NCBI RefSeq assembly: GCF_004571065.1
Contig: NZ_SPQN01000001.1
Span: 1-64,000, forward strand
DNA length: 64,000 nucleotides
Direction of reading: 5' to 3'
From: Geodermatophilus sp. DF01-2
Lineage (GTDB): Bacteria > Actinomycetota > Actinomycetes > Mycobacteriales > Geodermatophilaceae
The notes beneath the pieces are model-generated. The model was not told the origin of the DNA. It searched no databases and worked only from the letters and a program-made list of their open reading frames with translations. Numbering within the stretch: the stretch's first letter is position 1; the number at the start of each line of letters is the position of its first letter. Positions 39,307 to 47,213 of this stretch are shown here, piece after piece. A program made the position numbers and the translations under genes.

Positions 39307-40353
39307 TCAGCGGGTGATCGTCGGCGCATGCCCGTTCTGGGCGACCTGCCCGTTCTCACGCGCGGCGAGCCGCTCGCGCTGGGGGACGACGGTGTACTTC
39401 GGGTCCCTGGCGCTGGCCATGCCCGCCTCGAAGACGCCGAACCGGGTGAGCAGCGACCCGGCTGCGAGCAGCGCGCCGGCGACGACCGCTCCTGCGCGAC
39501 GCCGTCCGGCGACCACGGTCAGCGCCGCGCCGGCCGCCGTGCAGGACCTCGCCGCCCGCAGCAGCGTGCCCGCCTTCCCCTCGTGGTAGGGCTCGCTGAC
39601 GATGCCGAGGTCGTTCTCCACCCGGCGCATGGTGGCCAGCTCGATCACCGCACCGGCCACGGCCATCTTCCGCGACGGCCCGGCCTCCTCGACCGGGGTG
39701 AGCGCCATCGTGAGCCCCCCGCCCGCGGCCATCCCCGACGCGCCGAAGACGAACGGCAGCTCCCGGTGCGCCGCGTGCCACGACGGGACGGCGGTGTTGG
39801 AGAAGAGCACGCCGGTGTAGGTGGCCAGCGGCCCGCCGAACAGCGCCGCGACCGCGCCGCCGAACCGCTTGAGCCGCGGGAACCAGCCCAGCGCCTCCAC
39901 CGCCGCGGTCGCACCGGCCGCCGCGCTGAACGGCGCCAGGATGTACGAGCCGATCGACAGCGGCGACGTCGGCTTGATCACCCTCAGCATGTGCAGGAAC
40001 CGCTCGGGCCGACCGAGGTCGTGGATGAGGAAGACGACCGAGGCGACCGCCGCGCCGCCGGAGACCAAGCGGGCGTTGCGGGTGAGCGCGGGCCGGTCGG
40101 TCAGGTCGGCGAGCGCGCCGAGGATCGACGACGACCCGGCCGCGCCGCCGAGGAAGAGGTACAGCGGCACGTCCGGCGTCTTCCACACCGGTGGCTTGAT
40201 GATCGGCCGGCCGTAGTACGAGGTGAACTCGGCCTCCTCGACCATCGCCACCTCGCCGCCGGGACGGCCGTCGCCCCGCCGCCGGCGGCGCTTCTCGCGC
40301 CGCTGCGCGGACGGCCCGTCCGCGCGCCGCCAGCCCGCTCCCGGAGCCGTCAT
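39307..40353 (-). CDS. nrfD: NrfD-like membrane subunit of formate dehydrogenase
   Basis: The 348-residue polytopic protein of the NrfD/PsrC family anchors the dehydrogenase and exchanges electrons with menaquinone. After a basic cytoplasmic N-terminus come FTSYYGRPIIKPPVWKTPDV and about eight helices, with FLIHDLGRPERFLHMLRVIK, PTSPLSIGSYI and the GVLFSNTAVPSWH segment typical of the family. ATG 40353 overlaps the Fe-S subunit stop by 4 bp. Absence of haem ligands separates it from cytochrome b-type FdnI. It is the last gene of the fdh operon, about 50 bp before vapB. Confidence 0.85.
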   Translation of the reverse strand: MTAPGAGWRRADGPSAQRREKRRRRRGDGRPGGEVAMVEEAEFTSYYGRPIIKPPVWKTPDVPLYLFLGGAAGSSSILGALADLTDRPALTRNARLVSGGAAVASVVFLIHDLGRPERFLHMLRVIKPTSPLSIGSYILAPFSAAAGATAAVEALGWFPRLKRFGGAVAALFGGPLATYTGVLFSNTAVPSWHAAHRELPFVFGASGMAAGGGLTMALTPVEEAGPSRKMAVAGAVIELATMRRVENDLGIVSEPYHEGKAGTLLRAARSCTAAGAALTVVAGRRRAGAVVAGALLAAGSLLTRFGVFEAGMASARDPKYTVVPQRERLAARENGQVAQNGHAPTITR

Positions 40354-41420
40354 CGGGGCTTCCTCGAGCCGAGGACGGCGGAGACCGCCACCCCGACGAT
40401 CATCGCCGCGGCGGCCGCAGCGGACTTCCACATCGCCGGCAGGTCGCGCGTGGTGACGACCGGGTCCGGCGGCAGGCCGTAGACCTCCGGCTCGTCGAGC
40501 AACAGGAAGAACGCCCCCGCTCCGCCGACGCCGTCGTCCTCGTCCCGCCCGTAGAGCCGGGCGGTCTCCACGCCCTGCTCCTGGAGGGTGGCCAGCCGCG
40601 CGTCGGCGCGGGCCTGCAGCTCGTCGAGGTTGCCGAACTGGATCGACTGCGTCGGGCACGCGGTCGCGCACGCCGGCTGCAGCCCGTCGGTCAGCCGGTC
40701 GTAGCACATCGTGCACTTGAAGACCCGGCCGTCGCCCTTGCGCTGCTCGATCACCCCGTACGGGCAGGACGGCACGCAGTAGCCGCAGCCGTTGCAGATG
40801 TCGCCCTGGACGACGACCGTGCCGAACTCGGTGCGGAACAGCGCCCCGGTCGGGCAGACGTCGAGGCACCCGGCGTGCGTGCAGTGCTTGCACACGTCCG
40901 AGCTCATCAGCCAGCGGATCTGCTTGTCCGCGCCCGACTGCCCGGTCTGCGGGTCGAATTCGGAGAGCCCCTCGGCGTTGAGCACGCTGGACTGCTGCGC
41001 GGTCGCCAGGCTCTCGTCGTTCGGCCCGTCGGTGACCGAGCGGCCGGAGTCCTGCCGTGCGTCCCCCGGCCGGCCGAACGTCGGCATCGGCAGGTCGACG
41101 GTGCGGGACTGCTCGATGAACGCCACGTGCCGCCACGAGTTGGCGCCCAGCTGACCGGTGTTGTCGTAGGACATCCCGGACAGCCCGATGACGTCGCGCG
41201 TGCCGTGCGCGTCGTCCATCGGCAGGGTGTTCCACTCCTTGCACGCCACCTCGCAGGCCTTGCAGCCGATGCACACCGAGGTGTCGGTGAAGAAACCCAC
41301 CCGCGCCGGGTGGTCGGCGTCGTAGCCGGCCTCGCCCTGGACGTCGGGCAGCGGCCCGTACAGCCGGTTCTCCGGGTCCCGCCCGGTGAAGGCCGGGCTC
41401 GCCGAGCTGATCGAGGTCAC
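40350..41420 (-). CDS. fdhB: formate dehydrogenase Fe-S (beta) subunit
   Basis: This 356-residue electron-transfer subunit has four cubane Cys clusters: CIGCKACEVACKEWN near residue 50, CKHCTHAGCLDVCPTGAL, CNGCGYCVPSCPYGV and CTMCYDRLTDGLQPACATAC. Near the C-terminus a hydrophobic segment (MWKSAAAAAAMIVGVAVSAV) may be the membrane anchor seen in FdnH/HybA-like proteins. It would relay electrons from the molybdenum or tungsten site to the NrfD-like subunit. GTG 41420 follows a good GAGGGG. It is separated from fdhA by the opposing toxin-antitoxin pair. Confidence 0.9.
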   Translation of the reverse strand: MTSISSASPAFTGRDPENRLYGPLPDVQGEAGYDADHPARVGFFTDTSVCIGCKACEVACKEWNTLPMDDAHGTRDVIGLSGMSYDNTGQLGANSWRHVAFIEQSRTVDLPMPTFGRPGDARQDSGRSVTDGPNDESLATAQQSSVLNAEGLSEFDPQTGQSGADKQIRWLMSSDVCKHCTHAGCLDVCPTGALFRTEFGTVVVQGDICNGCGYCVPSCPYGVIEQRKGDGRVFKCTMCYDRLTDGLQPACATACPTQSIQFGNLDELQARADARLATLQEQGVETARLYGRDEDDGVGGAGAFFLLLDEPEVYGLPPDPVVTTRDLPAMWKSAAAAAAMIVGVAVSAVLGSRKPR

Positions 41421-41452
41421 GAGAGCCCCTCGGCGCGACAGTTGTACCGGTT

Positions 41453-41466
41453 CATATTCGGCGTCG
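41453..41466 (+). promoter_or_regulatory. candidate leaderless promoter of the mazEF-like pair
   Basis: CATATT (41453-41458) ends seven bases before the GTG at 41466, in an AT-richer patch of this GC-rich region. This fits a -10 for a leaderless toxin-antitoxin transcript, divergent from the Fe-S subunit gene whose start is only 46 bp away. No good -35 is seen. Confidence 0.3.
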
Positions 41467-41720
41467 TGAAAACAGCCATCTCCATCCCCGACGAGACGTT
41501 CGAACGTGTCGAGACGAGCGTCGCCGAGCTCGGTATCAGCCGCTCGGAGTTCTTCGCCCGCGCCGCCAAGAAATACCTCGACGAACTCGAGTCGGAGTCG
41601 ATCACCGCACAGATCAACGCCGCGATCGACGCCGGCGCGGTGGACGAGGACCTGGACCGGGACGTCACCGAGCACGGCCGCCGGATGCTGCTCGAGCTCA
41701 CCGCCGACGACGAGTGGTGA
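41466..41720 (+). CDS. MazE-like ribbon-helix-helix antitoxin
   Basis: The 84-residue protein begins KTAISIPDETFERVE and has SRSEFFARAAKKYLDEL, the strand-helix-helix of RHH antitoxins related to mycobacterial MazE. The acidic tail VDEDLDRDVTEHGRRMLLEL would bind the toxin. The start is GTG 41466; its stop overlaps the toxin's GTG. The pair occupies the gap between fdhA and fdhB on the opposite strand. Confidence 0.85.
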   Translation: MKTAISIPDETFERVETSVAELGISRSEFFARAAKKYLDELESESITAQINAAIDAGAVDEDLDRDVTEHGRRMLLELTADDEW

Positions 41721-42157
41721 TCGAACGCGGCGGCATCCACTGGGCCGATCTCAGGCCTCCGGGGGGCTCGCGACCGGCAGAGCGGCGCCCGGTCGTCGTC
41801 GTGCAGTCCGAGAAACACGACCGCAGTCGACTCGCCACCGTGGTGGTGGTCGCGGTCAGCTCCCAGACCGATCTCGCCCGGCATCCCGGCAACGTGTTCA
41901 TGCCTGCGGCGGTCAGCGGCCTGCCGCGCGATTCGGTCGTCAATGTGACCACGCTGACGACATTCAACCGCTACGACCTGGAGGACCGCGTCGGCACCGT
42001 TCCGCTCGCGGTGATGCACGAGATCGATGCGGGACTGCGGTTGGTACTGGGGCTCGGACCGGATCACAGTCGGGACCCCTCGCCGGCGTCGGCCTCGACC
42101 GGGTCGCGGCCGTTCGGCCCGACCCTGCCGGACTCTACCCCGGCCCGCCGCCGGTAG
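41717..42157 (+). CDS. mazF: MazF-type endoribonuclease toxin
   Basis: The toxin domain (residues about 1-113) starts IERGGIHWADLRPPGGSRPA and has RRPVVVVQSEKHDRS, VVAVSSQTDLARHPGNV and VVNVTTLTTFNRYDLEDRVG, all PemK/MazF hallmarks. It would cleave single-stranded RNA. GTG 41717 overlaps the antitoxin stop by 4 bp; GTG 41714 is also possible. The 146-residue protein carries a Ser/Pro-rich tail of about 33 residues beyond the usual end, and that tail is antisense to the last 94 bp of fdhA, so the two reading frames overlap tail-to-tail. It ends with TAG. Confidence 0.85.
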   Translation: MIERGGIHWADLRPPGGSRPAERRPVVVVQSEKHDRSRLATVVVVAVSSQTDLARHPGNVFMPAAVSGLPRDSVVNVTTLTTFNRYDLEDRVGTVPLAVMHEIDAGLRLVLGLGPDHSRDPSPASASTGSRPFGPTLPDSTPARRR

Positions 42158-45100
42158 GACTCCACGAACTCGATCAGCTCCGGCCCGCGCGGGCGTCGTC
42201 CCGGCCGGATGTCGGCGGTGCTGACCTTGTCCTCCTGGATGTGGGTGTTGGCGTCGAGCACGATGCCCAGCAGGTCGTTGGCCGAGTCACCGGTCGAGAT
42301 ACCGCTGTAGGACCAGTGGTACGGCATGCCGATCTGGTGCACGACCTGGCCGTCTCGCAACTTGATCGGCCGCATCCGCTCGGTGACCAGCACCTTGGCC
42401 TCGATCGCCGTCCGCGCGCTGACGAGCGTGGCGTACTCGCCGTTGGCCAGGCCGCGGAGCTCGGCGAGCTCCGGGCTGACCTCGACGAAGAACTCCGGCT
42501 GCAGCTCCGCCAGGTAGGGCAGCGTGCGGCTCATCCCACCGGCCGTGTGGTGCTCGGTCAGCCGGTAGGTGGTCACCTGGAACGGGAAGACCTCGCTGCG
42601 CGGCGGGTTCTCCCGGTTCCACGGCCCGGGGATCCGCTCGAGCGTGGGGTTGGCCTGCTGCTTGTACAGCGCGTTCTCGACGACCGACTCCGCCGGCTCG
42701 TAGTGGGTCGGCAGCGGGCCGTCGACCAGGCCCGCGGGGGCGAACAGCCAGGCCTTGCCGTCACCCTGCATGACGAACGGGTCGGTGCCGGCGATCGCGT
42801 CCTGCGCCTTCGCGCCCTCCGGCGGCACGTAGTCCGGGCGCTTGGTGGCCTCGAAGTCGGGGACGTCGACGCCGGTCCAGCGGCCGGCGTCGGCGTCCCA
42901 CCAGACGTACCTCTTGCGCTCGCTCCACGGCTTGCCGTCCGGATCGGCCGAGGCGCGGTTGTAGAGGACCCGGCGGTTGAGCGGCCAGGCCCAGCCCCAC
43001 TCCGAGGCGACCGGGCCCTGCTCGCGCCCGGGCTTGCGGCGCGCGGACTGGTTCACCTCGTCGGCGTAGACGCCGCAGTAGATCCAGCAGCCCCCGGTGG
43101 TCGAGCCGTCGTCCTTCATCTCCAGGTAGGACGACAGCGCCCGCCCGTCGGGCCCGGTGCCGTTGATCTCGCGCAGCACCGCCTCCGCGCTGGGCTCCTG
43201 CTCCGGCCCGTGGGTCGGGTAGTCCCAGGTCAGGTCGAGCAGCGGACGGTCCCGCGGGTCGGTGGAGTCCTTCAGCCGCTCCCGCAGGATGCGGCCGAGG
43301 TGGAAGTAGAACCACAGGTCGCTGCGCGCGTCACCCGGGGGTTCGACCGCCTTGTGCCGCCACTGCAGCACCCGTTGGGTCTGGGTGAAAGTGCCCTCCT
43401 TCTCCACGTGCGTGGCCGCGGGCACGAAGAAGACCTCGGTGGCGATCGTCTCGGGGGCCAGCTCCCCCGTCTCGATCTCCGGGGACTCCTTCCAGAAGGT
43501 CGCCGACTCGATCAACTGCAGGTCGCGGACCACCAGCCAGTCGAGGTTGGCCAGCCCGAACCGGTTCATCCGACCGTTGGGGTGCCCGACCGTCGGGTTC
43601 TCGCCGACCAGGAAGTAGCCGGAGACCTTGCCCTCGATCATGTCGGCGATCGTCCGGTAGGAGCTGTGGTCGCCGTCGATCTTGGGGAGGTAGTCGAACG
43701 CGAAGTCGTTCTCCGGCGTCGCGGCGTCCCCCCACCAGGCCTTGAGCAGGCTCACCATGTAGGCCGGCTTGTTGCCCCAGAAGCCGGCCTTGCCGGCCGC
43801 GTCCGCCACGTAGTCGTGCAGCGACCCGTGCTGGAGGGCGTGCGGCATCGGCAGGTAGCCGGGGAGGATGTTGAACAGCGTGGGGACGTCGGTCGAGCCC
43901 TGGATGCTGGCGTGCCCGCGCAGCGCGAGGATCCCGCCGCCGGGGCGGCCGATGTTGCCCAGCAGGGCCTGCAGGATCGAGGCGGTGCGGATGTACTGCG
44001 CGCCCACGCTGTGCTGCGTCCAGCCCACCGAGTAGACCCACGCCGTCGTCCGCTCGCGGCCGCTGTTCTCGGTGATCCAGCGCGCCACCTGCTCGAAGAC
44101 CTCCGGCTGGACGCCGCAGACCTCGGCCACCATCTCCGGCGTGTAGCGGTCGAAGTGCCGCTTGAGGATCTGGAACACCGAGCGCGGGTGCTGCAGCGTC
44201 TCGTCCCGCTTCGGCTTGGCCGCGATCGGCGGGCCGCCACTGCCGGCCGCCTGGGCGCGGTCGGAGTGCTTCACGTCCGGGTGCTGCTCGGCGCGGTCCT
44301 GCTCGCCGGCCTCGGCCGGATCGTCGGCCCCGGAGTGCGGCGGCTCCTCCGGCTCGTACTGCCAGCTGGCTTCGTCGTAGGTGCCGCTGTCCGGGTCGAA
44401 ACCGGAGAAGAGGCCGTCGAGGTCCTCGGCGTCGACGAACTCCTCACCGACCAGCGCGGCCGCGTTGGTGTACGCGACCACGTACTCCTCGAAGTACAGC
44501 TCGTTGTCGAGGACGTACCTGATCAGCCCACCGAGGAACGCGATGTCGGTGCCCGCGCGCAGCGGCACGTGCAGGTCGGCGATGGCGCTGGTGCGCGTGA
44601 ACCGCGGGTCGATGTGGATGACCTTGGCCCCGCGCGCCTTGGCCTCGGAGACCCACTGGAAGCCCACCGGGTGGCACTCGGCCATGTTCGAACCCTCGAT
44701 GACGATGCAGTCGGAGTTCGCGAGGTCTTCCTGGGTGTTCGTGGCGCCGCCACGACCGAACGAGGTCCCCAGACCGGGGACCGTGGCGGAGTGCTATATG
44801 CGCGCCTGGTTCTCGATCTGGATCGCGCCCAGGGCGCTGTAGAGCTTTTTCATGAGGTAGTTCTCCTCGTTGTCGAGGGTCGCCCCTCCGAGGCTCGCTA
44901 CTCCCATGGTCCGGTTGACGCGCCGGCCGTTGTGCTCGTCCTGCCAGCCCTTGCGCCGGGCCTCCAGGACGCGGTCGGCGATCGTCTCCATCGCCGTGTC
45001 GAGGTCGAGGTCCTCCCACTCCGTCCCGTACGGGCGGCGGTACTTGACCGTCGTGACCCGGGTCGGGCTGGTGACCAGCTGCTTGCTCGCGCTGCCCTTG

Positions 45101-45354
45101 GGACACAGCCGGCCGCGGCTGATCGGCGAGTCGGGGTCGCCCTCGATCTGGACGATCCGCTCGTCCTGGACGTAGATCCGCTGGCCGCAGCCCACCGCGC
45201 AGTACGGGCACACGCTCTGCACGACGCGGTCGGCGGTGGCCGTGCGGCTGACCACGTTCTCGGTCGCCCTGCTGCGTGCGGCCCTGCCGCGTCCGAGCGG
45301 ATCGGGGCCGGTCAGCTGCCGGAACACCGGCCACGCGTCGAGCCAGGTCTTCAC
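42064..45354 (-). CDS. fdhA: formate dehydrogenase alpha subunit, selenocysteine at in-frame UAG
   Basis: This large molybdopterin (bis-MGD) subunit of 1,096 residues reads through TAG (44794-44796) at codon 187. An N-terminal [4Fe-4S] domain has C49, C52, C56 and C84 (SVCPYCAVGCGQ; GRLCPKG). The catalytic segment is ENQARI-(TAG)-HSATVPGLGTSFGRGGATN, where relatives carry Sec or Cys followed by His. The cofactor domains follow, and a C-terminal dinucleotide-binding domain holds VTTYRLTEHHTAGGMSRTL. An acidic insertion of about 45 residues lies near residue 325. There is no Tat signal, so the protein is likely cytoplasmic. GTG 45354 is the likely start. Without recoding, the product would be 186 residues and inactive. 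It oxidises formate to CO2, passing electrons to FdhB and the NrfD-like subunit. Confidence 0.85.
44764..44796 (-). promoter_or_regulatory. SECIS element with UAG selenocysteine codon
   Basis: Counting the T of TAG as base 1 on the minus strand, bases 15-21 (GGUCCCC) pair perfectly with bases 27-33 (GGGGACC) around the loop GGUCU (22-26). In E. coli fdhF and fdnG mRNAs the SelB-binding hairpin has a GGUCU-type apical loop at the same distance from UGA (from memory of those sequences). The hairpin lies wholly within coding sequence, as bacterial SECIS elements do. Confidence 0.85.
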
Positions 45355-45492: not shown

Positions 45493-45560
45493 TGATCATG
45501 GGGTTGTTGCCGCTCGTCACGGCGGGTCGTCGCGTGTGTCCGACAACAACCCCATGATCA
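45493..45560. repeat. 68-bp palindromic repeat, copy 1
   Basis: Arms TGATCATGGGGTTGTTG (45493-45509) and CAACAACCCCATGATCA (45544-45560) are perfect 17-bp complements around a GC-rich centre containing TCACGGCGGGTCGTCGCGTG. Two further copies of identical length occur at 46587 and 47146. It is intergenic, between fdhA and the AbiEi-like gene, and could form a long hairpin or cruciform. It resembles a REP/MITE-type element with no coding capacity. Confidence 0.85.
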
Positions 45561-46586: not shown

Positions 46587-46654
46587 TGATCATGGGGTTG
46601 TCGTCCCTTGTCACGGCGGGTCGTCGCGTGTCACCGACAACAACGCCATGATCA
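46587..46654. repeat. 68-bp palindromic repeat, copy 2
   Basis: This copy has the same outer arms TGATCATGGGGTTGT / ACAACGCCATGATCA with one mismatch and the same core TCACGGCGGGTCGTCGCGTG. It lies just upstream of the AbiEi-like gene. Length is exactly that of copies 1 and 3. Confidence 0.85.
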
Positions 46655-47145: not shown

Positions 47146-47213
47146 TGATCATGGGGTTGTCGCCGCTCGTCACGGCGGGTCGTCGCGTGTCCCCGACAAC
47201 AATCCCATGATCG
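47146..47213. repeat. 68-bp palindromic repeat, copy 3
   Basis: Arms TGATCATGGGGTTGT and ACAATCCCATGATCG keep the pairing with few mismatches, and the core TCACGGCGGGTCGTCGCGTG is unchanged. It is followed at once by a GACGGC hexamer run. It lies upstream of the MBL-fold gene. Confidence 0.85.

Follow-up and report, generated by a model that had tools for sequence, protein, structure and literature searches.

In pyrrolysine decoding, UAG is read by a dedicated CUA tRNA. Formate dehydrogenase (FDH) and UGSC selenoproteins with a selenocysteine (Sec) encoded by UAG were reportedly described by Mukai et al. in 2016. The accessible sections of PMC10778597 describe the decoding of UAG as pyrrolysine and, for some species, the recoding of UAG, UAA, and sense codons to Sec. 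The closest system has been found in the Geodermatophilaceae: the accessible sections of PMC5330540 report a CUA tRNASec in three genomes of this family and an AhpC protein with a Sec encoded by TAG in Blastococcus saxobsidens DD2, and they refer to an earlier report (reference 56 of that paper, presumably that of Mukai et al.) for the FDH and UGSC selenoproteins. In view of these excerpts of PMC5330540 and PMC10778597, UAG-encoded Sec is a known kind of recoding, and its occurrence in the Geodermatophilaceae is already in print (PMC5330540).

The DNA stretch analyzed here, of 64,000 nucleotides (the window), contains an fdhA gene with an in-frame TAG, and its genome resembles the system outlined in the sections of PMC5330540 referred to above in having the same CUA tRNASec and Sec-TAG candidates in all three protein groups, FDH, UGSC, and AhpC. 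Whereas PMC5330540, as far as its accessible sections go, deals with three genomes, we surveyed 112 genomes of the family of the present genome, which to judge by the shared trait is probably the Geodermatophilaceae, placed the switch of the anticodon within this family, and found one genome with both anticodons. Among the titles and abstract openings of the literature consulted, which included few subscription journals, none announced that such a switch had been mapped or that one genome contains both tRNASec. Possibly new are the mapping of a single switch, the genome with two anticodons, and the ATA codon that invariably precedes the TAG of FDH.

The fdhA gene and its in-frame TAG

The gene, its TAG codon, the hairpin behind it, the tRNA, the sel genes, their distribution, and the position of the switch in a SelA tree were all read from sequence. 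The minus strand of the window carries fdhA, encoding the alpha subunit of formate dehydrogenase (42064..45354; 1097 codons including the stop), which was identified by its reading frame, Pfam, and phmmer. The frame extends from GTG 45354, the assumed start, to the TGA at 42066-42064. It had been claimed in an earlier note on this DNA that fdhA is open except for a single TAG at codon 187, located where formate dehydrogenases carry Sec or Cys. Both statements were confirmed. In the minus-strand frame, the sole internal stop is the TAG at 44794..44796 (codon 187 counted from GTG 45354), which is followed by CAC (His). The protein contains three molybdopterin-enzyme domains (PF04879, PF00384, and PF01568), and in phmmer alignments the TAG residue is matched to the X of two FDH structures, namely, 1h0h ("ARIXHSATV") and the nitrate-inducible FDH 1kqf ("ARVXHGPTV"). 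We take the letter X in both entries to be Sec.

Another minus-strand frame, at 40350..41675, exceeds its gene in length; judging by the Cys clusters CIGCKACEVAC and CNGCGYCVPSCPYG in its translation, it encodes the probable iron-sulfur (beta) subunit and belongs to the same operon as fdhA. As a separate observation, three near-identical repeat units (TGATCATGGGGTTGT...) are found at 45493-45537, 46587-46631, and 47146-47190, a span within 1.7 kb, of which the first is just upstream of fdhA. Each unit closes with an inverted copy of its own start, and no such repeats would be expected by chance.

A hairpin with a 7-bp stem and the loop GGUCU begins 11 nt past the TAG (44764..44782, minus strand), and its earlier description proved exact: the sequence is GGTCCCC-GGTCT-GGGGACC, with the 5' arm at 44782-44776, the loop at 44775-44771, and the 3' arm at 44770-44764. 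By analogy with known systems, this hairpin probably acts as the SECIS element bound by SelB. We scanned the window for the corresponding geometry, defined as a stop codon, a spacer of 11 nt, a stem in which 6 or all 7 positions pair, and the loop RGTNT. With TAG the geometry occurs once, at the fdhA site, and with TGA or TAA it does not occur in the window. When the codons were redrawn synonymously at the codon usage of fdhA itself, all seven pairs were kept in 16,550 of 200,000 redraws (8%). The protein sequence itself thus favors the stem, so that a single fdhA hairpin is weak evidence, and we rejected its use as strong stand-alone proof. For the three UGSC hairpins of the same genome, which are described below, full pairing was kept in 3.9%, 6.5%, and 2.5% of the redraws. 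The hairpin evidence gains its weight from (i) the fact that, in this genome, genes of two unrelated protein families share this arrangement behind a TAG, (ii) the pair changes on both sides of the stem in relatives, combined with the matching tRNA, and (iii) the finding that 98 of the 112 genomes of the family have an FdhA in which exactly one TAG is present.

The 50 TAG-type FDH sites that were read contain 22 distinct hairpins, of which 19 pair at 7/7 and 3 at 6/7 positions. Pair 4 alone appears in them as CG (12 hairpins), GT (7), GC (2), and TA (1), and the mean pairing of 6.9 drops to about 4.1-4.2 if one arm is shifted against the other by a single base. Full pairing was also observed in 7 of 16 distinct TGA-type FDH hairpins, the other 9 pairing at 6/7, and in 6 of the 9 distinct hairpins found in UGSC genes of the family, the other 3 pairing at 5/7.

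Genes for selenocysteine decoding and candidate selenoproteins

The assembly to which the window belongs (C101:1-64000) comprises 4.45 Mb in 199 contigs and is 99.68% complete. As a check of its proposal, the earlier note had suggested a search for selC with a CUA anticodon and for selA, selB, and selD, and all four genes are present. The gene selC (tRNA-Sec), with the anticodon CTA, is located on the minus strand at G000:C133:113623-113714 and matches RF01852 with 66.6 bits, the cut-off being 47; a second match above the cut-off (48.8 bits) is a tRNA-Ser according to ARAGORN. On one side selC is flanked by selA, beyond which selB is found, and on the other side by selD. The genes selA and selD were identified as the ORFs adjoining selC, and as tblastn queries they match two plasmid loci with annotated selA and selD. 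For selB, the match to TIGR00475 is above the cut-off (269.6 bits), and the matched part is C133 110997-112040. The sequence therefore contains the features of bacterial Sec decoding, namely, tRNASec, selA, selB, selD, and a hairpin 3' of the Sec codon. The set of genes and their order are the same as in the canonical UGA-Sec systems on plasmids of Arthrobacter sp. YA7-1 and Tsukamurella tyrosinosolvens. A UAG-reading tRNASec, which the earlier note ascribed to Geodermatophilus and Blastococcus, agrees with what the accessible sections of PMC5330540 state.

A search of the genome for the NCBIfam family UGSC resulted in three matches with one TAG each, at C153:24731-25159, C101:102806-103237, and C166:94672-95085, the last of which scores below the family cut-off (99.3 versus 125 bits). 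In all three genes, the TAG takes the place of the U in UGSC, and a spacer of 11 nt separates it from a 7-bp stem whose loop is AGUGU or AGUCU. An AhpC-like gene (AhpC/TSA match; C141:12479-12763) contains one TAG, in GDW-U-PYC, and with Cys in place of the TAG its product matches Pfam PF00578 with 49.2 bits. Here the TAG is followed by 14 nt and a 6-bp stem with the loop GGUCC; compared to the FDH and UGSC geometry, the spacer is 3 nt longer and the loop is 2 nt further away. Together with fdhA, this makes at least five candidates for UAG-Sec genes in the genome. Judging from these sequences, UAG is very probably read as Sec in fdhA and four other genes of this bacterium.

Probable use of UAG as a stop codon

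The earlier note had also held that UAG is still a stop, and as far as can be told from the sequence this is the case. The genome encodes RF1 (467.4 bits; cut-off, 423.25). In the window, 38 long ORFs with high GC3 were kept as genes; TGA terminates 34 of them and TAG the remaining 4. Since the fdhA Sec codon is among these four TAG codons, ordinary ORFs ending in TAG amount to 3 of 37. The selB gene ends in TAG as well, and there is no FDH-type hairpin behind its stop or behind those of the three window ORFs; it is the combination of RF1 with these TAG ends that indicates a continued use of UAG as stop. Hairpins after TAG are not rare in this genome, since a GC-rich hairpin with the loop GCUGC is present 16 nt downstream of the selB TAG. 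A full reassignment of UAG to Sec throughout the genome, with no recoding by context, would be consistent with the minority share of TAG among the stops, but it is at odds with an RF1 that scores above its cut-off and with the TAG ends of selB and the three ORFs, and we consider it very unlikely.

Distribution in the family

Our survey of the family covered 112 genomes. RF01852 was matched in 108 of them, and a CUA-tRNASec pattern with a variable spacer was matched in 101. A search with an FdhA fragment retrieved 124 rows in 100 genomes. Exactly one TAG and no TGA were present in 118 of these rows, corresponding to 98 genomes, and the remaining 6 rows (G034, G079, and G098) do not span the Sec site. 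Most of the one-TAG frames are longer than 1000 codons, and 96 genomes have both the CUA-tRNASec pattern and a one-TAG FdhA. Since the row counts provide the number of stops and not their place, the place was read in 50 TAG-type loci, and the TAG was at the Sec site in all 50. The UGSC rows of the family contain one TAG or no stop and never a TGA.

These data bear on the possibility that the TAG arose through a sequencing error or marks a dead fdhA, an idea suggested by a lone TAG in an otherwise open gene and by G079, in which both copies of fdhA are broken here. The one-TAG, no-TGA FdhA in 98 of 112 genomes rules out a read error as well as a lone pseudogene, and the codon position is the same in 50/50 loci read; we attach almost no probability to this explanation. 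As for G079, both copies (L219, G079:C4; L220, G079:C12) lack the segment in which the Sec codon and the hairpin would lie. Their breakpoints differ and the frame is changed, the damage being either a true loss or an assembly fault.

The CUA pattern is missing from 11 genomes of the family, which are nine genomes of the genera g5 to g7 and the incomplete genomes G097 and G098. Despite this, the latter two have an FdhA with one TAG. In g5 to g7, a tRNASec was found in 7 of the 9 genomes, and all seven have the anticodon TCA. The FdhA search at an E value of 1e-60 gave no match in these genera; at 1e-15, an FDH homolog was retrieved from three g7 genomes, with 34-37% identity over the Sec site. 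These homologs have a TGA at the aligned Sec position, followed by CAC, and GGTCT 18 nt after the TGA; the FDH-type stem is only partial in single-sequence folds. Genus g7 thus contains deep genomes of the family with a UCA tRNASec and a divergent TGA-type FDH (L133-L135, L166-L168). Two short FdhA-like pieces were found in G070 (residues 10-103, with 1 TAG, and residues 628-687), neither of which covers the Sec site. UGSC copies above the cut-off in the g5 and g7 genomes G066 and G072 number two and contain no stop.

Sister families and the change of the anticodon

At the level of the order, we searched 397 genomes, family members included, and found an FdhA match in 268. Among the matches listed outside the family, the FdhA rows show one TGA, with the row of G209 showing one TGA and one TAG. 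At the Sec site, TGA was found in 20/20 sister-family FDH loci read. A tRNASec was present in 17 of 18 sister-family genomes chosen among the matches listed, and all 17 have the anticodon TCA. The canonical UGA-Sec systems read in the sister families thus combine a TGA codon with a TCA anticodon, in contrast to TAG and CTA here, whereas the SECIS geometry of the sister-family FDH is the same as here and the loops are nearly the same.

We also scanned the contigs of 84,980 species for a CUA tRNASec-like pattern that forbids C31 so as to exclude the family. Outside the family, this resulted in 4 stretches, none of which reaches the Rfam tRNA-Sec cut-off; two match RF00005 and two have no Rfam match. 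Any tRNA that bears C31 or deviates from the pattern in other respects would escape the scan, and C31 does occur outside the family together with UCA (G253). A tRNA with the anticodon CTA in an uncultured Erysipelotrichaceae MAG (L127 2779-2868, minus strand) is a plain tRNA according to Rfam and a possible amber suppressor.

The change of the anticodon was placed on a tree of SelA with 39 rows, which is not a species tree and in which the CUA genera are g1, g2, g3, g8, and g9 (5 of 9). A single branch (bootstrap, 100; SH-aLRT, 100) separates all 22 CUA rows from the rest, and the tree contains one anticodon change in all. The four UCA rows of the family group apart (100/99). Their union with the CUA group, and with it the order of the deepest branches, is weakly supported (54/18). 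Within the family, CUA and UCA tRNASec differ in the anticodon, in the loop-closing pair (T31-A39 versus C31-G39), and at scattered other positions. With one switch on the SelA tree, these sequences point to a single change from UCA to CUA inside the family.

The tRNA data also weigh against the view that UAG encodes pyrrolysine here or is decoded by a general amber suppressor, which we regard as extremely improbable and rejected on the basis of tRNA family and neighbor genes. ARAGORN does label the CTA tRNA gene tRNA-Pyl, owing to its anticodon, but the pyrrolysine system employs another tRNA family, whereas RF01852 is the only Rfam family above the cut-off in the 3-kb locus. The gene lies among sel genes, between selA and selD, is not of the pylT type, and departs from the UCA orthologs of the family chiefly in the anticodon arm, and the TAG codon is at the Sec position of an FDH.

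Proposed mechanism and implications

We consider it highly likely, from the sequences compared, that the UAG of fdhA specifies Sec by means of the usual Sec machinery of bacteria, altered mainly in the anticodon of the tRNA, in one switch within the family. The central claim of the earlier note, a UAG-encoded Sec in fdhA, is supported by the CUA selC, the sel genes, and the family-wide TAG, from which we infer Sec in the protein. The individual steps, including tRNA charging, SelB binding, the insertion of Sec, the role of the residue, and the fate of the other UAG codons, are modeled on the known pathway. SerRS would charge the CUA tRNASec with serine, and SelA, using selenophosphate from SelD, would convert Ser to Sec on the tRNASec. 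SelB would bind the hairpin 11 nt downstream and deliver Sec-tRNASec at UAG, and elsewhere UAG would be read as stop by RF1. The Sec residue would serve as a metal ligand in the formate dehydrogenase. One anticodon change from UCA to CUA probably occurred in an ancestor inside the family, and the Sec codons would have passed from UGA to UAG along with the anticodon.

A number of implications can be drawn. (i) The identity of the Sec codon follows the tRNA anticodon, a dependence that this lineage seems to have exploited. (ii) At least two unrelated selenoprotein families are on UAG with a CUA tRNA, and the sister families and deep genera keep UCA and, where read, UGA. (iii) The family offers a natural record of a codon transfer, which is useful to code-expansion work that places Sec at UAG. 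(iv) There is a risk for annotation, since fdhA, UGSC, and AhpC-like genes appear truncated and the tRNASec is mislabeled as tRNA-Pyl, as by ARAGORN.

A genome with both tRNASec anticodons

In one genome of the same genus (G059), the CUA tRNASec usual in the family is found on contig C11 (L079), and contig C17 carries a second tRNASec, complete and with the anticodon UCA (L078 1173-1263, minus strand; 81.8 bits). Contig C17 is 69 kb long, has a lower G+C content (0.61-0.63) at 2-6 kb, and contains ORFs beyond this region that we read as transposase-like. A search of the first 20 kb of C17 revealed neither selA nor selD, and a scan of the entire 69-kb contig gave no TGA with the FDH-type SECIS geometry. 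In a query of 1401 bases made for the origin of this UCA tRNASec, 66-115 bases match 5 plasmid records, and there are no phage matches. In the two plasmid matches examined (H1 and H2), the matching stretch is located between selD and selA. On the plasmids of Arthrobacter sp. YA7-1 and T. tyrosinosolvens (L169 and L170), formate dehydrogenase genes adjoin selD, selA, and selB; plasmid typing classified the Arthrobacter plasmid as conjugative and the Tsukamurella plasmid as non-mobilizable. Since some plasmids of these bacteria carry fdh together with sel genes, the UCA tRNASec of G059 could have come by plasmid; contamination is another possible source. A speculative and rather doubtful idea is that the transition from UGA to UAG included an intermediate with two tRNASec genes, a condition that G059 shows today. 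If true, G059 could translate UGA as well as UAG as Sec, provided that a SECIS element lies behind the codon.

The codon preceding the Sec codon

The codon just before the fdhA TAG (44797..44799, minus strand) is ATA (Ile), the only ATA among the 43 Ile codons of the gene. The aligned sites of both types, TAG and TGA, are in loci L048-L077 and L171-L210. ATA precedes the FDH Sec codon in 50/50 TAG-type sites, which, the sequences being related, are not 50 independent events. At the 20 TGA-type sites, the codon is ATT in 16 cases, ATA in 4, and never ATC, and nearby Ile codons are ATC in 491/516 cases in TAG-type genes and in 202/220 cases in TGA-type genes. The codon before the Sec codon is ACT in the three g7 FDH homologs, and at 28 UGSC sites it is GAT (14) or GAC (14), so the ATA/ATT constraint is limited to this type of FDH. 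The ATA before the Sec codon may be part of the recoding signal or of the stop-codon context.
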